NCBI GenBank assembly: GCA_947385505.1
Contig: CANDLP010000028.1
Span: 1 to 12,186 of the forward strand
Origin: an uncultured Clostridia bacterium
Lineage (GTDB): Bacteria > Bacillota > Clostridia > Oscillospirales > Ruminococcaceae
Direction: 5' to 3'
DNA: 12,186 nt
Positions 3,328-11,993 of the stretch are shown in pieces. Each line of letters opens with the position of its first letter. Position 1 is the first letter of the stretch. A program made the translations under genes and the position numbers. A model generated the notes under the pieces. The model had not been told where the DNA came from and ran no database searches. It was given only the letters and a program-made list of their open reading frames with translations.

Positions 3328-3915
3328 TCACCCGAACACCTTTTTCAGCCATTCAAACAGCGCGAATTTTATTTCCGGCGGTCTGTTCGGATCGTCAATA
3401 TCGGCGTCATTGTATACGTACTCCTCCACTGCCCCCAAACAAAGGGGAGGGAACATCACGCACCACCAGTTTCTTCCTTCCCCTTTCCCAATCAGTATGC
3501 GCAGGGCGTCATACTCCCCGGCGGGAACGGTAACGGCGCCGTATTGGCGGGTAGTAAAAAACACCTTTTCCACGCTGGCGGTTATTTTATAATCATATCC
3601 GCTGTCGCTTACAAACTGCTGCGCCTTAACAGTGATTTCGCGAAGATTGTTTTTAGCGGCGTTCTTTGCTTCCTCGGCAGTGGAACAGCCTTCAAAAATA
3701 TACTGCATATCTTCGGACAAAAAGTCGCGAAGAGCATATTTTAGCTCCTGATCCTCCTTGCTGTCGGAGTTCGCCAGAATGTGCATACGAAAAAGCCTTT
3801 CGGGCATATCCTCACACTCTCCCGCAAAGGCGGAAAAGCTTCCCAGCGCAACCGCCAAAGCTGTACCGAAAAGCATTGACAGGGTCAGTGCGCGTTCCTT
3901 TGACAAAAATTTCAT
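3328..3915 (-). CDS. spoIIR: Stage II sporulation protein R (SpoIIR)
   Basis: Secreted forespore signalling protein of 195 aa. In Bacillus SpoIIR is exported from the forespore and triggers SpoIIGA to process pro-sigma-E in the mother cell; the same role is inferred here. Residues 10-31 form a hydrophobic signal/anchor ending AFAG. Family hallmarks follow: HILANSDSKEDQ (45-56), PAGEYDALRILIG (131-143) and the near-diagnostic NWWCVMFPPLC (149-159). The ATG at 3915-3913 is preferred because AAGAAGG lies 8 nt upstream of it; the frame could be opened 16 codons earlier (3963), but that extension has no ribosome-binding site and would put non-signal sequence before the hydrophobic segment. It is convergent with the methyltransferase gene and divergent from the sigma gene, sharing a 150-bp spacer with the latter. 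I saw no convincing sigma-F promoter. It shows the lineage is spore-forming or descends from spore formers. Confidence 0.95.
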   Translation of the reverse strand: MKFLSKERALTLSMLFGTALAVALGSFSAFAGECEDMPERLFRMHILANSDSKEDQELKYALRDFLSEDMQYIFEGCSTAEEAKNAAKNNLREITVKAQQFVSDSGYDYKITASVEKVFFTTRQYGAVTVPAGEYDALRILIGKGEGRNWWCVMFPPLCLGAVEEYVYNDADIDDPNRPPEIKFALFEWLKKVFG

Positions 3916-4013
3916 ACATAATACCTTCTTTCGGTTTTCTACGTTGATTATTGGAAGATCCAAATCAAATATACAGGAAATATAAAGGTATTTTCGCGCA
4001 AAATTTCAAAAGC

Positions 4014-4051
4014 TGAAACTTTTTACCATAAAGTCCTTACTACTAAGTGTA
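4014..4051 (+). promoter_or_regulatory. Candidate ECF-sigma promoter (autoregulatory), upstream of the sigma gene
   Basis: TGAAAC (4014-4019) directly followed by a T-run, then CTTACTACTAA (4036-4046) and G-TGTA (4047-4051). TGAAAC about 16-17 nt before the -10 is the classical ECF -35 element (for example B. subtilis sigma-W type). The same pattern with identical spacing recurs upstream of the surface-protein gene at 11993-11956 on the minus strand. A start site near 4050-4055 would give a leader of about 10-20 nt before the GTG start. The -35 also lies in a small inverted repeat TTTCA-N5-TGAAA (4004-4018). Confidence 0.6.
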
Positions 4052-4065
4052 AGGCGGAAAGTGAG

Positions 4066-4626
4066 GTGAAACGCTTGAACCGAAAAGGTGAAGCCTCTCC
4101 CGAAACTTACTTTAATACCGTTTACGACAGTACGGTTAAATCTCTCACCAGATTTGTCATCAGTAAATGCGGAAACATACTTGACGCGGAGGATATTCTT
4201 CAGAATATCTACGCCAGATTTTATCAGCGCATCATCAAAAAAGGCTACGACGACATAGAAAACGCCGAAGCTTTTCTGATAAGCATTGCAAAATTCGAGT
4301 GCAAAAGCTATTACAGCGCTCAAAAACGGCACAGCGTCACCGAAAGCTTTTCCGACTACACCGATGAACAGATGGTTATGATAGAAAACGAGATGTCCAA
4401 AACTCAGAAAAATTTTGAGGACATTCTGTGCGACGAGCTTCTTGCCCGCGAAATTTTTGAGGATATAGCAAATACGGACGAATTAACCGGAAAAATTTTC
4501 TACCTCTATTTTGTCTGCGATATGAAGCTTGCGGATATTGCCGTCGAGCTGGACATGAATCTTTCGGCAGTAAAAAACAAGCTGTACCGCACGATAGAAC
4601 GGCAAAAGAAAAAATTTAAACTTTAG
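4066..4626 (+). CDS. ECF-type RNA polymerase sigma factor
   Basis: Alternative sigma-70 family factor of 186 aa with only the sigma2 and sigma4 domains, the ECF layout. Sigma2 spans about residues 17-85: the core-binding helix reads DAEDILQNIYARFYQ (40-54) and the promoter-melting segment contains AEAFLISIAKFECKSYY (67-83). An acidic linker (about 92-122) leads to sigma4 (about 126-182), whose helix-turn-helix is MKLADIAVELDMNLSAVKNK (153-172). The tail is very basic. The GTG at 4066 is used, with AAGGCGG eight nt upstream; a TTG at 4075 with GAGGTGA just before it is a realistic alternative start that would shorten the protein by three residues. The next gene begins 15 bp downstream and encodes a single-pass membrane protein, the usual place for an anti-sigma factor. 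A TGAAAC-type promoter immediately upstream suggests autoregulation. Regulon and inducing signal cannot be read from the protein. Confidence 0.9.
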   Translation: MKRLNRKGEASPETYFNTVYDSTVKSLTRFVISKCGNILDAEDILQNIYARFYQRIIKKGYDDIENAEAFLISIAKFECKSYYSAQKRHSVTESFSDYTDEQMVMIENEMSKTQKNFEDILCDELLAREIFEDIANTDELTGKIFYLYFVCDMKLADIAVELDMNLSAVKNKLYRTIERQKKKFKL

Positions 4627-4641
4627 GAAGGAGGGAAGCAT

Positions 4642-6420
4642 GTGGATAAAAAAGAATTTTACAGACAGCTTATGGAGAGTTATACCGTTGACACCGAAAG
4701 GGTAAAACGCAATGCCAAGCGAAAAAGCCGTAATGTAAAAAGCAAAGTCCTTGTGATCCGCAGATGGACAGCGGCCGCCGCAGCGTGCAGCGTGGTCACC
4801 GCCGCAGCCGTTGCAGCCGTTTCCCTTGGTTCTTCCGGCGTACCGCATATAGACAATTCCGAAGGCTACAACATCACCGACGGCGGAGCGGAAAATGCCA
4901 GAGAGCGGCTTGCCGCCGCCGAAGAGCAATTTGCGGTACTTTCGGTAAACAGCGGTGTGGAGGAATTCTCCGACCTGTACGTTTCGTTCCGAAAGCCGCT
5001 TAAGTACAATGAAATAACTATGGGACTGTCGGTAATCGAAGACTATAATAATATCAGCATAAGCCTTCTTTATTTAGCTGACGGAAGTCATTACGAAAAC
5101 ACATCTGCGCTTGACGATTCACTCGGCTTCTCCGGAGCGAAGATATCCGTTCCGGCGTCAATGCTCTCGGAAATAAGGGAGCTAAAGGAAATAACGGTTG
5201 TTGAATACTCCGAAAGCGGTATTACCGACGATACGTTTATTCCGTTCAACGGCCTGCCGGCGGACGTTACAACAACACCGGAGCCTGTCAGCGAAAATAT
5301 CAATATTTCTATGCCAAATTCCGCCACCGAGCCTCCCGTAACGGAACCGGTCACTGAAACTCCCACCGAAACGGAGCCCCCTGTGACCGAGCCGACGGAA
5401 ACCACGGCATCGTCCGAAACCGCTGAAAACGAAACCACCGATATAAGCGCCGATACAAGTATATCGGCGGAAGAAACCACCGTACCGGATATAACTACCT
5501 CGGAACCCGTCACCGAAACCACGACGGAAGCCTCCGAAACGGCGGAGCCTGTTTTTGAAGCGGTAGCGGTACCTCTTCAAGGGATTAAGACGATCAATTT
5601 TATAAACAACACCCACTTTGTGGCTGCCACCGCCGACAGCATAAGACTGTTCAGGTGCGAAAAAGGCGAGATAAAGCTTGAAACCACCTATTATGCGTCT
5701 TCGGCAAAGATCAGCTATTCTTCTTATGACGGCTCAAAGCTGTTCATTATCGCAAAAGACGGTGAAAACAGATCAAGACTTTATTACGCCGACGGCGACG
5801 CCTCGCTTTTAAGCGAGGTCGACGTAAGCTATATCACTTCGGGCGGAGCGGAGCTATCCTCGGTTTCGTGCAGCGGCGACGGTAAAATCGTGCTTATGAA
5901 GGCGGTATCCTTGGATAAGACAATAGTATACTACGGCGAACGGTCTGAAGGCACCATTTCTCTTGCCAACCATGAATACGGCAGTCCCGTATCGGTTCTC
6001 GCCTATTCCGACGGCATAGTTTATACCGCAGTCACCGACTCAAAGGAAAATACCGTAAAAATATACAGCATAGCCGCCGCAAGCGGAGCGGAAACTGAAC
6101 TGGCATCTTATACCGGAACACTTAAATATACAAGAAGCCCCGACCTTAATATGGCGCTGCTCACCGTTACCAACGATTCGGGCGAGGTGAATGTTATTCT
6201 CAACAAGAGCGTTTTGATTCCCGTTGAAACAAGCGACGCGGTATTTTCAGGAGAGAGAAACGATCTTGTAATGTTGGGCGGAGCTTATTACACCGTATCC
6301 GGCGGCGAATTGACCGCAATTTCTGAAGAGGAAGCAAAGCCCTGTTTTGAGACAGTAAACGGACCGGCATATGAAATTTCGGAAAACGGAGACGCTTCGG
6401 TAGTGATACAAATAAATTAA
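4642..6420 (+). CDS. Single-pass membrane protein, probable anti-sigma factor/sensor with stalk and beta-rich (propeller-like) outer domain
   Basis: Not recognised as a named family; 592 aa. Order of parts: short basic cytoplasmic N-terminus (1-40, ending RKSRNVKSKVLVIRR); one very Ala/Val-rich membrane helix (about 42-63); an outer globular region (about 80-205); a low-complexity Thr/Glu/Pro stalk with repeated TEPPVTEP / TETT units (about 209-304, nt 5266-5553); and a C-terminal domain (about 305-592) made of short alternating beta-strands with recurring SxDGSKLF / SGDGKIV / SPDLNMAL-type turns, suggestive of a TolB/WD40-like beta-propeller. The GTG start has GGAAGGAGG seven nt upstream; an overlapping ATG at 4640 is out of frame. 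It sits 15 bp after the sigma gene, so role as cognate anti-sigma or signal receptor is inferred from position and topology. The ~40-residue inner segment is short for a canonical zinc anti-sigma domain and has no HxxxCxxC motif. A terminator follows at 6464. Confidence 0.75.
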   Translation: MDKKEFYRQLMESYTVDTERVKRNAKRKSRNVKSKVLVIRRWTAAAAACSVVTAAAVAAVSLGSSGVPHIDNSEGYNITDGGAENARERLAAAEEQFAVLSVNSGVEEFSDLYVSFRKPLKYNEITMGLSVIEDYNNISISLLYLADGSHYENTSALDDSLGFSGAKISVPASMLSEIRELKEITVVEYSESGITDDTFIPFNGLPADVTTTPEPVSENINISMPNSATEPPVTEPVTETPTETEPPVTEPTETTASSETAENETTDISADTSISAEETTVPDITTSEPVTETTTEASETAEPVFEAVAVPLQGIKTINFINNTHFVAATADSIRLFRCEKGEIKLETTYYASSAKISYSSYDGSKLFIIAKDGENRSRLYYADGDASLLSEVDVSYITSGGAELSSVSCSGDGKIVLMKAVSLDKTIVYYGERSEGTISLANHEYGSPVSVLAYSDGIVYTAVTDSKENTVKIYSIAAASGAETELASYTGTLKYTRSPDLNMALLTVTNDSGEVNVILNKSVLIPVETSDAVFSGERNDLVMLGGAYYTVSGGELTAISEEEAKPCFETVNGPAYEISENGDASVVIQIN

Positions 6421-6463
6421 CAGAAATAAAAACGGAAATAAACAGAGATAAAATAAGGAGAAG

Positions 6464-6502
6464 AAAGCGGAGCCTTTAATTTGAAAGGTTCCGCTTTTGT
6501 TT
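6464..6502 (+). terminator. Rho-independent terminator after the sigma/anti-sigma unit
   Basis: Fourteen-bp stem AAAGCGGAGCCTTT (6464-6477) with AAAGGTTCCGCTTT (6484-6497), one G-U pair, hexaloop AATTTG, then a U-rich run TTTTGTTT (6495-6502). It lies 44 bp past the stop codon, closes the two-gene sigma operon and isolates it from the cellobiose phosphorylase promoter. Confidence 0.85.
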
Positions 6503-6563
6503 GCGCTAAATAATTTTATAAATGCGAAAATATTTCTTGTACAAACCGCCGAATTAGTATAAG

Positions 6564-6573
6564 AAAACGTTTT
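6564..6573. promoter_or_regulatory. Perfect palindrome AAAACGTTTT, LacI-family operator candidate
   Basis: A 10-bp perfect palindrome centred on CG, the hallmark central step of LacI/GalR-family operators. It is about 75 bp upstream of the main -35 and overlaps the weak TATAAG box. It fits the strict cre consensus poorly outside the core, so a dedicated sugar regulator is as likely as CcpA. Confidence 0.4.
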
Positions 6574-6627
6574 ATCCTATATACAACAAATAAAACAAAA
6601 ATGCCGCGGCCTGTCCCAAAATTTTTT

Positions 6628-6643
6628 ATGGTAACGTTTTCAG
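6628..6643. promoter_or_regulatory. cre-like (CcpA/LacI-family) operator candidate
   Basis: ATGGTAACGTTTTCAG matches 15 of 16 positions of the published cre consensus WTGNNARCGNWWWCAW (only the last base differs). It ends 3 bp before the -35 hexamer of the GH94 promoter, where a bound LacI-family protein would touch or block polymerase. Consistent with carbon-source control of a cellobiose-degrading enzyme. Confidence 0.55.
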
Positions 6644-6646
6644 CCC

Positions 6647-6675
6647 TTGAAATTTTTATAAAAATGTTATATACT
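6647..6675 (+). promoter_or_regulatory. Sigma-A-type promoter of cellobiose phosphorylase
   Basis: TTGAAA (6647-6652), 17-bp spacer, TATACT (6670-6675). The start site would fall near 6682, leaving a leader of about 57 nt before the ATG at 6739. Confidence 0.75.
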
Positions 6676-6738
6676 AATAAAAGTTATTGCGAATTATTTC
6701 AAACACCGCGAAACAATATGAAAGGAAAGGGAAATACA

Positions 6739-9237
6739 ATGAAATTCGGCTTTTTTGACGACCTTAACCGCGAGTATGTCATAACATCACCAAGAACGCC
6801 TTACCCATGGATAAATTATTTGGGAACGGAGGGATTTTTCTCCCTTATTTCCAATACGGCGGGAGGATACAGCTTCTATAAGGACGCAAGACTCCGCCGC
6901 ATCACCCGTTACCGCTATAATAATGTGCCCGTGGATATGGGCGGACGCTATTTTTACATTAAAGACGGAGACACCGTTTGGAACCCCGGCTGGTCGCCTG
7001 TAAAAACCGAGCTGGATAACTACTCCTGTCGTCACGGTATGGGGTATACCGTTATTTCGGGAGAAAAAAACGGCGTAAAAGCTGAAGTAAAATTTTTCGT
7101 ACCCGTTGGATTTAACGGCGAGGTGCAGAAGCTGACCATAACCAACAACAGCGGAAGCGCAAAAAGCCTTAAGCTCTGGAGCTTCCTTGAATGGTGCCTT
7201 TGGGACGCCAACGATGACACTACCAATTTTCAGCGCAATTTCAACACGGGCGAGGTGGAAATAGACGGAAGCACAATTTACCATAAAACCGAATACAAAG
7301 AGCGCCGCGATCATTACGCCTTCTACACCGTAAACGCTGACATAAAGGGCTTCGATACCGACAGGGAGAGCTTTTTGGGACTGTATAACGGCTTTGGAGA
7401 ACCTCAGGCGATAGCGAACGGAAAGCCGTCCAACTCGGTAGCCGACGGCTGGTCGCCCATTGCTTCCCACTATATTGAAATAGAACTTAAGGACGGGGAG
7501 AGTAAAGACCTTATTTTCCTTCTGGGCTATGTGGAAAACAAGTTTGAAGAGAAATTCGCCCCCGACCTTACCGATAAGGACACTGTCATTACCACCGCAA
7601 ACAGCAAAAAGAATATTGTCAACAAAATGAAAGCAAAGGAAATGATGGAGCTTTGCAACACCTCCGAAAAAGCGGAAAAGCTGTTTGAGGGCTTAAGAAA
7701 ATACTGGGACGACGTATTGAAACAATACAGCGTAGACTCCCCCGACGAAAAGCTCAATAGAATGGTAAACATCTGGAACCAGTATCAGTGTATGGTCACA
7801 TTCAATATGAGCCGCTCGGCTTCTTATTTTGAAAGCGGTATCGGAAGGGGAATGGGCTTCCGTGACAGCAATCAGGATCTTCTGGGCTTTGTTCACCAGA
7901 TTCCCGCAAGAGCAAGGGAAAGGCTTATCGACCTTGCCGCAACAATGCTTGAAGACGGCGGCGCTTATCACCAGTATCAGCCTTTAACCAAAATGGGCAA
8001 CCACGAGCTCGGCTCTAACTTCAACGACGACCCGCTGTGGATGATACTGGCAGTGGCGGCTTATATTAAGGAAACGGGCGACGTATCGATTCTTGATGAA
8101 AAAGTTCCCTATGAAAACAAGGACGAGCTTGCGGATACAATGCTTGACCATATGAAGAGAGCCTTCTATCATGTCTGCACAAAGATAGGTCCTCACGGTC
8201 TGCCTTTGAGCGGAAGAGCGGACTGGAACGACTGTCTTAACTTAAGCTGCTTCTCCGACAGACCCGGTCAGTCATTCCAGACCTTTACCTCTCCCAAATA
8301 CGGCGATACCGGTTACAGTAAAGTGGCTGAATCCGTAATGATAGCGGGAATGTTCTGCTTTATCGGTCCCGAATACGTAAAAATGTGTCGTATCAAGGGT
8401 GACGACGCCGAAGCCGAAAAGGCGCAGGCGGAGATCGACAAGATGAGCCGCGCTACAATGGAATACGGCTATGACGGCGAATGGTTCCTGCGCGCCTATG
8501 ACGACAACGGCAAGAAGGTAGGCTCTCACGAGAACGAAGAAGGAAAGATCTTTATAGAGCCCCAGGGCTTCTGCGTAATGGCGGGCTTAGGAAAAGACAA
8601 AGGCGCAGACCTTAAAACCTTGGAAAGCGTTGACAAATATTTAAACAGCAAACACGGATTGGTGCTTAACAATCCCGCGTTTACTCGCTATTATATTGAA
8701 TACGGCGAAATCTCCACCTATCCCCCCGGATACAAGGAAAACGCGGGTATTTTCTGTCACAACAACGCGTGGATAATCTGTTCGGAGGCGTTTGTGGGAC
8801 ACGGTGACAAAGCGTTTGAGTACTATTCGAAGATTGCTCCCGCTTATAATGAAGATATATCCGACCTGCACCGCACCGAGCCTTATGTATACGCTCAGAT
8901 GATAGCGGGAAAGGACGCTCCCAGATTCGGCGAGGCAAAGAACAGCTGGCTTACCGGTACGGCGGCATGGAATTTTGTTGCGGTTTCCCAGTATATTTTG
9001 GGTATCAAGCCCGATTATGACGGATTGACCGTAAATCCCTCCATACCTGCGGATTGGGATGGATTTACCGCTTCAAGACAGTTCAGAGGCGGAGTTTATA
9101 ATATTACCGTCAAGAATCCCGATCACATTAGCCAAGGCGTTAAAAAGACGGTTGTGGACGGACAAGTTATAAACGGCTGCGTAATTCCCGATTTAGGAGC
9201 AGGCGAGCATACTGTTGAAATAACATTGGGCAAATAA
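6739..9237 (+). CDS. Cellobiose phosphorylase (glycoside hydrolase family 94)
   Basis: Cytoplasmic enzyme of 832 aa that phosphorolyses cellobiose to alpha-glucose-1-phosphate and glucose, saving ATP after uptake of cellulose-derived sugars. The N-terminus [16 protein letters not shown] and [28 protein letters not shown] and YRYNNVP are near-diagnostic of GH94 cellobiose phosphorylases. The (alpha/alpha)6 catalytic domain carries [31 protein letters not shown] and [12 protein letters not shown], with the DWND Asp at residue 495 at the position of the family's general acid. C-terminal GTAAWNF and [11 protein letters not shown] complete the fold. Length is near the family norm. ATG 6739 is chosen over the open frame from 6601 because of SD AGGAAAGG eight nt upstream and the conserved N-terminus. 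No signal peptide. It stands alone: no transporter or sugar kinase is adjacent. LacI-type operator candidates precede it. Cellodextrin or other beta-glucobiose specificity is possible but less likely. Confidence 0.95.
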
Positions 9238-9254
9238 AAAGCTAACAGGATTTT

Positions 9255-9426
9255 ATACTAATAACCATTTGAATTGTGGATAAAATCCACAATTCAAATA
9301 CTTCGGCGAAGCCGAAGTACCGCCGAAGGCGGTGGTTATTTAAGTTCAATACAATACCTCACCATGCCGCTTTTGCGGCATGGCATTTAAAAAACAGATA
9401 AACTGTTTTTTAATGGTTGTTAGTAT
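9255..9426. repeat. 172-bp element with terminal inverted repeats and five internal hairpins (MITE/REP-like)
   Basis: Ends are ATACTAATAACCATT (9255-9269) and AATGGTTGTTAGTAT (9412-9426), inverted with one mismatch that would be a G-U pair in RNA. Inside are perfect hairpins: 15-bp stem, AAA loop (9267-9299); 9-bp stem, GAA loop (9299-9319); 6-bp stem, GAA loop (9319-9333); 9-bp stem CCATGCCGC, TTTT loop (9362-9383); 11-bp stem TTAAAAAACAG, ATAAA loop (9387-9413). AATAACC (9260-9266) can also pair with GGTTATT (9334-9340), closing the first three hairpins into a cloverleaf. TTATA occurs at both edges (9253-9257, 9426-9430), but it overlaps the inverted repeats, so a target-site duplication is unproven. 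No ORF inside. Mobile palindromic element or structured RNA are both possible. Confidence 0.65.
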
Positions 9427-9433
9427 TATAAGA

Positions 9434-9473
9434 CAAAAACAACGTGTCAAGATACTTTGATACGTTGTTTTTG
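9434..9473 (+). terminator. Terminator-like hairpin, likely for cellobiose phosphorylase
   Basis: Seventeen-bp stem CAAAAACAACGTGTCAA (9434-9450) / TTGATACGTTGTTTTTG (9457-9473), one G-U pair, loop GATACT. The T-run is part of the stem's end, as in A/T-paired bidirectional terminators. It is nearly 200 bp past the GH94 stop, with the hairpin element between. Confidence 0.6.
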
Positions 9474-9522
9474 CTATGAAAATCCAGCCCTGTAAAAACC
9501 CTGAATAAATTCCGTATTTTTC

Positions 9523-9551
9523 TTGCAAATCACAATAATTTATGATATACT
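9523..9551 (+). promoter_or_regulatory. Sigma-A-type promoter of the DHH phosphoesterase gene
   Basis: TTGCAA (9523-9528), 17-bp spacer, TATACT (9546-9551); expected start near 9558, giving a leader of roughly 88 nt before the ATG at 9646. Confidence 0.75.
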
Positions 9552-9645
9552 TATAAAGTATAAGTACTTCCAAAGTCAAAAACGATTTTGCTTTAATTCA
9601 AATTTCAGGCAGTTGCCAAATTCAATTTTATAAAGGAGAAAAACC

Positions 9646-10563
9646 ATGAGATTAGTAACCCGTTCCGATTTCGACGGCTTAGCCTGCGCCGCCCTGCTTA
9701 AAGAAGCGGGAATCATTGACTGCTGGACATTCGCTCACCCCAAGGATCTTCAGGACGGTCTGGTGCAGGTCAACGAAAACGACTGTCTTGCCAATGTGCC
9801 CTTTGTAGAAGGCTGCGGTCTGTGGTTCGACCATCATTCAAGCGAACACGAAAGACTGGAGCTTGAAGGCAAATACAAAGGAGAAAGCCGTATAACTCCT
9901 TCCTGCGCAAGAATAATTTACGATTATTACGGCGGCAAGGATCGTTTCCCACAATTTGATGAAATGATGGAAGCCGTAGACAAGGTGGATTCGGGAAACC
10001 TGACGGTGGAAGAAGTGCTTGATCCTAAAGGCTGGATATTGATCGGCTTTTTAATGGATCCCCGCACGGGTTTGGGCCGCTGGAGAAACTTTACCATACC
10101 CAACTACCGCCTGATGGAAGAGCTTATTGACGCCTGCCGCACAATGAGCACCGAAGAGATCCTTAATTTGCCCGATGTCAAGGAAAGGATCGAGGTATAC
10201 AACGAACAGTCCGAAAAGTTCAAAGAAATGGTAAAACAGCACACCCGTGTGGAAAAGGATGTTATAATTTCCGATCTGAGGGGCGTTGATCCCATATATA
10301 CCGGAAACCGCTTTATGATATACAGCCTTTATCCCGAACAGAACATATCCGTCTGGATAGTTAACGGAAAAGGCGGAAAGGGCTGCTCCGCGGCAGTAGG
10401 ATACAGCATAATAAATAAAACTTCAAACGTTGACGTTGGCAGTCTTATGCTGAAATACGGCGGAGGCGGTCATAAGAAGGTGGGCACCTGTCAGTTTTCA
10501 GACGAGGATATGGACGAAAAGCTGCCTAAGCTCATTGATGAGATAGTTAATTATAATGTTTAA
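9646..10563 (+). CDS. DHH-family phosphoesterase (DHH/DHHA1, exopolyphosphatase-like)
   Basis: Cytoplasmic metal-dependent phosphoesterase of 305 aa. Motif I is TRSDFDGLACAALL (residues 5-18, metal-ligand Asp 8 and Asp 10), motif III is WFDHHSS (60-66), the namesake DHH, and motif IV is VDKVDSG (111-117). The C-terminal DHHA1 substrate-binding domain ends with GGGGHKKVGTCQF (272-284). All expected ligands are present. The family includes RecJ-like nucleases, nano-RNase/pAp phosphatase NrnA, cyclic-di-AMP/pGpG-type phosphodiesterases and polyphosphatases; this length and the SDFDG form match proteins usually annotated only as DHH phosphoesterase, so the substrate is open. ATG 9646 has AAAGGAG (9632-9638) seven nt upstream and its own promoter. 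It is monocistronic, ending at a bidirectional terminator. Confidence 0.9.
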   Translation: MRLVTRSDFDGLACAALLKEAGIIDCWTFAHPKDLQDGLVQVNENDCLANVPFVEGCGLWFDHHSSEHERLELEGKYKGESRITPSCARIIYDYYGGKDRFPQFDEMMEAVDKVDSGNLTVEEVLDPKGWILIGFLMDPRTGLGRWRNFTIPNYRLMEELIDACRTMSTEEILNLPDVKERIEVYNEQSEKFKEMVKQHTRVEKDVIISDLRGVDPIYTGNRFMIYSLYPEQNISVWIVNGKGGKGCSAAVGYSIINKTSNVDVGSLMLKYGGGGHKKVGTCQFSDEDMDEKLPKLIDEIVNYNV

Positions 10564-10580
10564 TCAAGTGGAAAAACATA

Positions 10581-10612
10581 AAAAAAGAAGCTCAAACGAG
10601 CTTCTTTTTTGT
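10581..10612. terminator. Bidirectional Rho-independent terminator between convergent genes
   Basis: Stem AAAAAAGAAGCTC (10581-10593) / GAGCTTCTTTTTT (10598-10610), loop AAAC. The A-run and T-run flank a GC-containing core, so it works for the DHH gene on plus and the surface-protein gene on minus. The two stop codons are only 63 bp apart, leaving no room for separate terminators. Confidence 0.9.
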
Positions 10613-10626
10613 TAATATCAAGAAAA

Positions 10627-11817
10627 TTACTTTCTCTTCTTAGCGATAACAACCGCACCGCCTGCGAGAACCGCAATAGCGGCTACAACAGCTACGCCTT
10701 CGATACCTGTATCGGCGTTGCCCTTGTCGGAAGCGGGAGTGTTGTTGGTATCAGCAACAGGAGCGGTAGTTTCTGCGGGAGCTTCGGTAACAGACTCAGC
10801 AACGGCTTCTGTTGCAGCTTCAGTTTCAGACTCGGCAGCGGGAGCTTCTGTTTCATCGGAAGCGGCGTTTACGCTGATAGTGAGCTCAATGGAGTTGATA
10901 TTTGCAGAGGGGAGCTCAATGAAGTTTTCGCTCCAGATGTTGTAGAGGCAGAAGTCAAATACGCCCGCGTCAGAGAGTGCGGAAGGAGCGCCATCCTTTA
11001 TGGCAACTTCCTCGCCGTTGATCTTAAGAGACTTGTAAGAAACGTTGATGGGATCGATAGCAGAGGTTGTGGCTGAGCCGCTTTCAACGGCAACATCCTT
11101 GGCGTAAATAACGGTAATCGTGGAAGGATCAAGATCAAGTCCGGAAATGGAGTATGTATAATCTCCGGCGCCTGTAACTGTAACGCTGTCAGACTTGGCG
11201 TTAGTCCATGTTACGTTTTCGCCGACATAAAGAGCGGTTTCAAGGTTAGCAGTGAAAGAAGAAGCTTCAGCCGCGGTTTCTTCGGGAGCTGCTTCGGTAG
11301 CTTCGGGAGCAGCTTCGCCGGTGATTACATTGCCGTCCTTGTCAAGAACTTCGATATTGTCAACAGACAATTTCTTTGTTGACCAGTCAACAAGCCAAAG
11401 CTGTGCATATTCATCATCAGCTGCGAAAATAGGACCGCCATTCTGCCATGTAACAGTTCCGTTTTCAAGGTCGGCGGTAATCTCCTTGTCAACTCTGCCC
11501 CACTCAACCTGTTTCCAGCCGGTAGAATTAGAGTTTGCAACTACCGCGCCGCCAAGCCATGTAGCTTCATCGGCAACGTCAGCCGCGTCAAATGTAACGT
11601 AGAATCTTACGCCGCAAACGGTCGTGATATCAACGCCTGCGTCAACTGCCCACTGGGCTTTTCCGTCATTAGCTACAAGATACAGAGCTGCGCCATGATT
11701 GCCTTCAACATTTTTCTCAAAATAATCGGCAATATCAACCGCGCTTGCGCTTGCAGCCATAGCAGTCACAGCCAAAGCAGAGGCTGCAACGCCTGCCAAA
11801 ATGTTCTTCATTTTCAT
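10627..11817 (-). CDS. Secreted, probably wall/membrane-anchored two-domain surface protein
   Basis: Unrecognised family; 396 aa. Signal peptide at residues 1-26 (KMKN, hydrophobic AGVAASALAVTAMAASASA, cut expected after ASA). Domain 1 (about 28-160) is beta-rich with Trp motifs WLGG, GWKQVEWG and WLVDWS, reminiscent of carbohydrate-binding beta-sandwiches, but this is not proven. A Glu/Ala/Pro linker (168-186) leads to a second beta-rich domain (187-319), then an acidic linker of TEAPAAESETEAATEA type (320-362). The tail has NADTG (367-371), one hydrophobic helix (372-391) and KKRK, the layout of a sortase sorting signal with NADTG in place of LPxTG. ATG 11817-11815 is chosen because GGAGG lies about 8 nt upstream; the TTG five codons earlier overlaps that SD. 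Two promoters precede it: a near-consensus sigma-A type and a TGAAAC type shared with the ECF sigma operon. Confidence 0.85.
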   Translation of the reverse strand: MKMKNILAGVAASALAVTAMAASASAVDIADYFEKNVEGNHGAALYLVANDGKAQWAVDAGVDITTVCGVRFYVTFDAADVADEATWLGGAVVANSNSTGWKQVEWGRVDKEITADLENGTVTWQNGGPIFAADDEYAQLWLVDWSTKKLSVDNIEVLDKDGNVITGEAAPEATEAAPEETAAEASSFTANLETALYVGENVTWTNAKSDSVTVTGAGDYTYSISGLDLDPSTITVIYAKDVAVESGSATTSAIDPINVSYKSLKINGEEVAIKDGAPSALSDAGVFDFCLYNIWSENFIELPSANINSIELTISVNAASDETEAPAAESETEAATEAVAESVTEAPAETTAPVADTNNTPASDKGNADTGIEGVAVVAAIAVLAGGAVVIAKKRK

Positions 11818-11840
11818 GAAAAATTCCTCCAATTTTTAAT

Positions 11841-11856
11841 ATAAGCAAAAGCTTAT
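11841..11856 (-). promoter_or_regulatory. Leader hairpin of the surface-protein mRNA
   Basis: ATAAGC-TTTT-GCTTAT (minus-strand sense) forms a 6-bp stem with a tetraloop beginning a few nt after the predicted sigma-A start site and about 10 nt before the SD. Short 5' hairpins at this place often protect abundant mRNAs; function here is inferred. Confidence 0.4.
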
Positions 11857-11860
11857 TTTT

Positions 11861-11889
11861 ATTATACCTTATACGGTTACAAATTTCAA
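11861..11889 (-). promoter_or_regulatory. Sigma-A-type promoter of the surface-protein gene
   Basis: Minus strand: TTGAAA (11889-11884), 17-bp spacer, perfect -10 TATAAT (11866-11861). Start near 11854, leader about 37 nt. The best promoter match in the window, fitting an abundant surface protein. Confidence 0.85.
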
Positions 11890-11955
11890 TTGGCATTTTC
11901 CCCAATATGTAGTGCATTTTAACGGAAAATTTACCAACTTTTTCGCCGAATATAG

Positions 11956-11993
11956 TACAATTAGTAGTCGCGTACAATGTTTAAAAAGTTTCA
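11956..11993 (-). promoter_or_regulatory. Second, ECF-type promoter candidate of the surface-protein gene
   Basis: Minus strand: TGAAAC (11993-11988), a T-run, then CGACTACTAA (11970-11961) and T-TGTA (11960-11956). It matches the site upstream of the ECF sigma gene at 25 of 38 aligned positions without gaps, the differences being confined almost wholly to the spacer. A start near 11957 gives a leader of about 140 nt running through the sigma-A promoter. Confidence 0.6.

Follow-up and report, generated by a model that had tools for sequence, protein, structure and literature searches.

We analyzed a 12,186-nt stretch of DNA from an uncultured Clostridia bacterium of the Ruminococcaceae (positions 1–12,186 of contig CANDLP010000028.1, assembly GCA_947385505.1). 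This whole stretch, referred to below as the window, is contig C28 of an assembly of 2.57 Mb in 415 contigs with an estimated completeness of 87.5%. It contains a gene for an extracytoplasmic function (ECF) sigma factor of 186 aa (4066–4626, plus strand), followed by a gene for a candidate membrane anti-sigma factor of 592 aa (4642–6420, plus strand). On the minus strand, a secreted surface protein of 396 aa is encoded at 10627–11817; its signal peptide and its anchor, a C-terminal NADTG of the NPXTG type, were assigned by eye and by heuristic rules, and it scores 19.2 bits (E 0.0011) against the model NF033846 Rumino_NPXTG, under the cut-off of 23.5. A first-pass annotation had noted similar promoter-like sites upstream of the sigma operon and of the surface-protein gene and had proposed that the sigma factor acts on both. 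The sigma factor scores above the gathering thresholds of Sigma70_r2 and Sigma70_r4_2 and above the cut-off of TIGR02937 (47.2 bits versus 42.9). According to the accessible part of PMC8103513, ECF sigma factors (group IV) are defined by having only the sigma2 and sigma4 domains; the window protein fits this definition, with these two and no other Pfam families found in its 186 aa.

The site upstream of the sigma operon, TGAAACTTTTTACCATAAAGTCCTTACTACTAAGTGTA (4014–4051, plus strand), and that upstream of the surface-protein gene, TGAAACTTTTTAAACATTGTACGCGACTACTAATTGTA (11993–11956, minus strand), agree at 25 of 38 positions. In both, 20 nt separate TGAAAC from CTACTAA, and 12 of the 13 mismatches fall in the spacer between the TGAAACTTTTTA block (-35 box and T-tract) and the ACTACTAA block (-10 box); the pairing of sites reported in the first-pass annotation is thus real. 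At the sigma operon, TGAAAC with its T-tract occupies 4014–4024 and the -10 box TTACTAC (class A, T-type) occupies 4037–4043; judging from the spacing, transcription would start near 4050. Upstream of the surface-protein gene the corresponding minus-strand elements are TGAAAC with a T-tract at 11983–11993, whose position is kept in five genomes, and CGACTAC (class B, G-type) at 11964–11970, with a predicted start near 11957. Both -35 elements are read directly, and in its refined form the -10 box is NNACTAC, placed 17 nt from TGAAAC. The AAC of the -35 box, a feature of ECF promoters, occurs in the two window sites and also ahead of the sigma orthologs. The classical CGT of the -10 box is absent: sigma operons have TACTAC and the genes with copies of the site elsewhere, called here output genes, have GACT[AGT]C, so the two groups use different -10 variants. 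It should be mentioned that CGT is described in the accessible part of PMC8103513 as a classical ECF trait that is no longer defining.

An ortholog of the sigma factor (at least 59% identity) was found in 45 of 48 genomes of the same genus, the window genome counted; G016, G035 and G039 were without it. In other genera a match was detected in four of 32 genomes, with an identity of at most 37%. A protein search revealed 264 relatives at E values up to 1e-20. Close sigma genes come from metagenome-assembled genomes deposited under names such as Ruminiclostridium sp. and Oscillospiraceae bacterium; deer or rabbit ("Lapin") guts appear in some of the titles, and others are from what we take, judging from their sample codes, to be termite samples. 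The TGAAACTT core is present no more than 260 nt upstream of the sigma gene in 75 of the 76 orthologous loci, L139 being the exception; these loci belong to two overlapping collections and reduce to 48 distinct 45-mers. Such conservation argues for the proposal of the first-pass annotation that the sigma factor drives its own operon.

As a control for motif scans we used the reversed pattern over the same genomes. The scan suggested in the first-pass annotation, TGAAAC-N20-CTACTAA with two mismatches, gave 48 matches in this assembly versus 77 for the control, that is, no excess; it would wrongly appear negative because the pattern is too loose. The pattern TGAAACTTTT-N15-ACTAC gave four exact matches and one with a single mismatch, compared with one reversed match within one mismatch. 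Of these five sites, two exact ones are in the 12-kb window, one is on contig C4 and two are arranged in tandem on contig C159, the three extra sites falling in two other promoter regions.

Across the genus, the two -10 variants were found at different places. At least 52 exact T-type sites (T before ACTAC) were present among the matches listed, and all 41 of those for whose genome the sigma gene was mapped begin 43–132 nt before the matched sigma start; the remaining 11 are from genomes without a mapped sigma gene. Two further exact sites with A or C at that base (G083, G044) are also located at the sigma gene. For the output pattern, TGAAACTTTT-N14-GACTDC, exact matches number 93 and come from 55 of the 71 genus genomes; the reversed control gave three. 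When 245 genomes drawn from the order were scanned, the output pattern was present in seven of the eight members of the genus and in one of the 237 genomes of other genera (reversed, three); the 11 of these that belong to the same family gave no match. Of seven sigma orthologs of 49–57% identity, six (L136, L137, L138, L141, L142 and L144) have the G-type box upstream of their operon and thereby link this box to the sigma lineage; the seventh, L139, has no site upstream. We take this as evidence that the sigma lineage reads the G-type and that the T-type seen in the window's group is a later change.

All 93 output sites, the window's own among them, were read; they form 69 promoter regions, of which 46 hold one site, 22 hold two and one holds three; 22 of the 24 spacings between tandem sites are 70–132 bp, the other two being 336 and 374 bp. 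Products were flagged as secreted by a hydrophobic N-terminus with a basic residue, and as anchored by a C-terminal xxTG, a hydrophobic stretch and a basic tail. By these heuristic flags, 77 of the 93 sites are located within 36–700 nt before the gene of a secreted or anchored product, with a signal peptide at 74 and an anchor at 63. In a second check, made by eye region by region, secreted or anchored proteins followed 55 of the 69 regions. The baseline was given by 46 sigma-flanking loci, where the same flags marked 75 of 452 open reading frames as secreted and seven as anchored; frames of at least 100 aa were counted from their first ATG, so that signal peptides may be undercounted there.

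Ten other regions precede genes for membrane proteins of 62–79 aa that carry an NTG motif (STG in one case) just ahead of the membrane span, and two regions lie at contig ends with no gene. Two more, in G021 and G010 (loci L235 and L242; G021:C8 and G010:C31), precede a CinA gene with a sortase-domain gene behind it, and the regulon can therefore include a sortase. CinA passed the Pfam cut-off in both cases; both sortases scored below the cut-off of the class B model TIGR03064, and one passed that of Pfam Sortase with the other just under it. The present assembly has two sortase-domain genes, and no output site was found in the fetched sequence of the contig that carries them. Its site on C4 (G000:C4:9387–9416; L266, 3888; L151, 1501) is followed by a gene for a 79-aa protein, MTDIIANVNTGV..., which lacks a signal peptide; with its NTG motif, membrane span and Lys-rich tail it resembles a sorting signal without cargo. 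This gene is located upstream of an NAD(P)HX-epimerase-like gene (named by eye). A Pfam scan of ten output proteins revealed Dockerin_1 above the cut-off in two (L198, L172) and just below it in two others (L174, L171), and nothing informative in the rest. Proteins of this kind end in a dockerin rather than an anchor, a hint that some members of the genus may build a cellulosome-like complex on their surface.

From these sequence comparisons, we read the window as an autoregulated ECF operon, encoding the sigma factor and a probable membrane anti-sigma factor, plus one output gene, that of the surface protein at 10627–11817, and put the probability of this reading at about 0.88. Since the site is conserved, its output form is enriched in the genus and its copies precede genes of surface type, a single ECF factor would serve both its own operon and surface genes. 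The small cell-surface regulon envisaged in the first-pass annotation agrees well with the distribution of the output sites over the genus and with the proteins predicted downstream of them. In the proposed mechanism, a surface signal would free the sigma factor from its membrane partner, and the freed factor would recognize TGAAACTTTT-N15-ACTNC. It would then boost its own operon through the T-type -10 box and the surface genes through one to three G-type promoters located upstream of a basal housekeeping promoter. The prevalence of anchored and secreted products, the small xTG membrane protein and the CinA-sortase pair of two genomes suggest that the system is dedicated to controlling the protein coat of the cell surface.

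An autoregulated ECF factor with a membrane partner is a known arrangement; a regulon apparently centred on sortase-type surface proteins was not found described. In particular, a dedicated ECF factor governing the substrates of sortase (and a sortase itself in two genomes) was not found in the accessible literature on ECF factors, sortases, NPXTG/LPXTG, Ruminococcus, Eubacterium siraeum and Ruminiclostridium, a coverage with most subscription journals outside it. The proposal amounts to a genus-wide regulon hypothesis for surface proteins of gut bacteria that are known here mostly from metagenome assemblies, and, as the sigma factor, the probable anti-sigma factor and the promoters are all named, it is testable in a heterologous host.

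Several observations weigh against this reading. Exact output sites are missing from 16 of the 71 genomes of the genus. Conversely, G035 (rated 100% complete, 180 contigs) has only a sigma-like match of 27% identity, yet it carries two output sites, on contigs C93 and C102; G039 (rated 90%) and G016 (76%) likewise have no sigma ortholog. With two mismatches, TGAAACTTTT-N15-ACTAC gave 13 matches in the assembly versus 29 reversed ones; because such scans give no excess over the control, the signal is confined to near-exact sites. The assembly contains 22 sigma-70-type matches above the cut-off, which makes cross-recognition possible. Gene calls, gene starts and the assignment of signal peptides and anchors are heuristic and not curated. 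Finally, a strong promoter of sigma-A type may dominate the expression of the surface-protein gene.

This last point underlies the alternative that survives best, namely that the surface-protein gene is effectively driven by sigma-A and that the ECF site ahead of its promoter contributes little, being weak or a relic. The sequence TTGAAA-N17-TATAAT (11889–11861, minus strand) is placed between the ECF site and the ATG, corresponds to the consensus at 11 of 12 positions and is the best of the 20 sigma-A-type matches listed in the window; none of those listed lies directly upstream of the sigma operon. Among 38 output genes chosen because their leaders are at least 176 nt long, a sigma-A-type match of at least 10/12 was found between the site and the ATG in 28, and 23 of these 28 matches end 43–64 nt ahead of the ATG. 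Mononucleotide shuffles equal many of the single-gene matches in several per cent of cases or more, so the recurrent position is the better argument. A relic is harder to reconcile with the ECF site being kept: it lies 176 nt ahead of the ATG in the window and 176–178 nt in the best homologs (G001, G008, G016 and G033; homologs of the protein were found in 19 of 80 genomes, and the site position was compared for the best ones). Besides, 23 of the 69 output regions hold two or three sites, unlike a relic. We thus regard a negligible role of the ECF site as unlikely, though it is the alternative to be taken most seriously. Of the claim that the sigma factor controls the surface-protein gene, the link to the gene is supported, as output sites are enriched in the genus and precede surface genes, but "adds to" fits better than "controls", since with the strong sigma-A-type promoter also present the ECF contribution is probably additive.

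It is improbable, in our estimation, that another ECF factor reads the output sites and that the window factor reads only its own T-type site. Admittedly, the -10 base that distinguishes the T- from the G-type belongs to a kind shown to be important for ECF recognition (accessible part of PMC3397946), and the 22 sigma-70-type matches mentioned above offer candidates. However, among the 30 sigma-70-type loci of the assembly the motif with its T-tract (TGAAACTTTT-N15-ACT) occurs at the window locus and at none of the other 29, the sole other partial match being TGAAAC-N19-ACT, lacking the T-tract, at L205. The G-type box before the operons of six of the seven distant orthologs and the near restriction of the output motif to the sigma-bearing genus also speak for the window's own sigma lineage.

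Still less credible is that the shared sequence represents an operator or an RNA element instead of a promoter. Many sigma-operon sites contain an inverted repeat, and the conservation of output sites extends beyond the -10 box to about +5. On the other hand, TGAAAC, the T-tract and the -10 box at fixed spacing have the form of an ECF promoter, the distance to the gene varies, and the sole sigma-70-type locus of the assembly with the full motif is that of the window sigma factor itself. A chance match or a copied repeat, for which only the lack of excess in two-mismatch scans could be cited, we judge already refuted by the counts (93 sites versus 3 in the genus, one match in 237 outside genomes); moreover, the spacer diverges while both boxes match, in line with the recognition site proposed in the first-pass annotation.

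The inverted repeat of the window, CCTTAC-N8-GTAAGG (4035–4054, plus strand), covers the -10 box and the predicted start of the sigma operon. A repeat finder with a minimum length of 12 misses this 6-bp repeat. A stem of at least 5 was present in 26 of 48 distinct sigma promoters (permuted mean 9.8, maximum 17 in 1000) and in 13 of 31 promoters thinned to below 75% identity (permuted mean 3.9, maximum 9). None of the 1000 permutations reached the observed count in either set, with relatedness only partly removed. Counted over the genus-type promoters, the share is 26 of 42 distinct ones, and stems of 3 or less were found in 12 of the 48, including all six outgroup sequences; visual inspection of L136 and L141 revealed 6-bp pairing around a longer loop, beyond the stretch tested. 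Control arms taken from other positions of the sigma promoters gave no pairing signal. Output promoters showed no repeat beyond chance (stem of at least 5 in 6 of 91 distinct sequences, permuted mean 6.5). Because the arms change together between species, it is the pairing rather than the sequence that appears to be conserved. The 5' arm precedes the predicted start, and a hairpin could therefore form only in opened DNA or in read-through RNA from upstream. The repeat had also been listed as a terminator on the opposite strand; this was rejected, as no T run directly follows it.

A co-varying repeat on an autoregulatory promoter calls for explanation. As a tentative idea, which we favor less than its opposite, one sigma factor might serve two promoter classes differing by a single -10 base, with the T-type box lying, in many of the species, within the inverted repeat (approximately -15 to +5, the melted stretch). 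The repeat might then act as a structural governor that curbs self-amplification and lets the outputs respond fully; the xTG protein would be a possible feedback from the sortase side.

The partner protein has a short cytoplasmic N-terminus, one membrane span (by eye), an alpha/beta domain, a Pro/Thr-rich linker and a C-terminal beta-propeller. A protein of this type is encoded next to the sigma gene in the 45 genus and outgroup loci scanned (L099–L144 without L107), and in L145 and L146, with a sigma identity of 30%, the next protein is of a different type. The length of the partner varies from about 200 to 744 aa, mainly in its extracellular part, and its most uniform part is formed by the first ~28 residues (M[DN]KxxFYxELMxxYxxDxxKI and variants); in L137 the chosen start falls after the first residues of this motif. 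Searches of the window partner against Pfam and NCBIfam revealed no family at E values up to 0.01, and a search of solved-structure sequences with an anti-sigma alignment gave chance-level matches only. An AlphaFold model built from 15 sequences (mean predicted local distance difference test, 71; predicted template modelling score, 0.66) contained a confident beta-propeller at ~305–592 and a small alpha/beta domain at ~109–189; the linker, the N-terminus and the membrane span were of low confidence. Foldseek matched the model to propellers in general, including TolB, with template modelling scores by target length below 0.5. Positive autoregulation and a co-transcribed anti-sigma factor that binds the sigma factor are classical traits of ECF systems; what was observed here is, for the former, a shared promoter sequence and, for the latter, the gene order and a conserved N-terminus. 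Judging from its conserved N-terminus, layout and fold matches, the partner probably keeps the sigma factor inactive until a surface signal arrives.

The same layout has been described for Tt-TolB of Thermoanaerobacter tengcongensis. According to the accessible part of PMC3397946, Tt-RpoE1 is an autoregulated ECF factor with a downstream membrane anti-sigma factor, as shown experimentally; Tt-TolB binds it via 39 N-terminal residues, crosses the membrane once and is of TolB type in its C-terminal part. The propeller of the window partner matches TolB structures among other propellers. The promoter of Tt-RpoE1, tGTTAC-N16-CGTC (PMC3397946), differs from the window elements TGAAACTTTTT and GACT/TACT. 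Targets of Tt-RpoE1 beyond its own operon are not described in the accessible part of that paper, whereas surface outputs are proposed for the window system. In contrast to Tt-TolB, the window partner fits no Pfam family.

SigW, SigX and SigM of Bacillus have an AAC -35 box, a cell-envelope function and autoregulation, and their -10 box is of CGT/CGA type. The window system shares with them the AAC -35 box with a T-tract and, presumably, the envelope function and autoregulation, and differs in the type of the -10 box. The window sigma factor scores far below the cut-offs of the NCBIfam models for SigW, SigX and SigM. To our knowledge, SigI is not classed among the ECF factors. The SigI/RsgI systems of cellulolytic clostridia resemble the proposed window system in combining a sigma factor and a membrane anti-sigma factor having an extracellular sensor with autoregulation and the control of extracellular machinery (accessible part of PMC6056542), and some outputs of the window-type system bear dockerins as well. 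At SigI promoters the -35 is an A-tract and the -10 is of CG type (CGAA/CGTA; same source); the window sites are of another type, with a TGAAAC/T-tract -35 and a G/TACT -10 read directly. A T-tract after AAC occurs in B. subtilis ECF promoters, as far as the accessible part of PMC6056542 goes.

Besides these elements, the window contains a stage II sporulation protein R gene (3328–3963, minus strand), the divergent neighbor of the sigma operon; a SpoIIR match adjoins the sigma gene in 20 of the 51 loci searched. Closely spaced inverted repeats were also found after the GH94 gene (9254–9473), among them a 15-bp perfect hairpin at 9267–9299 and another at 9434–9473, which could be a small insertion or terminators.

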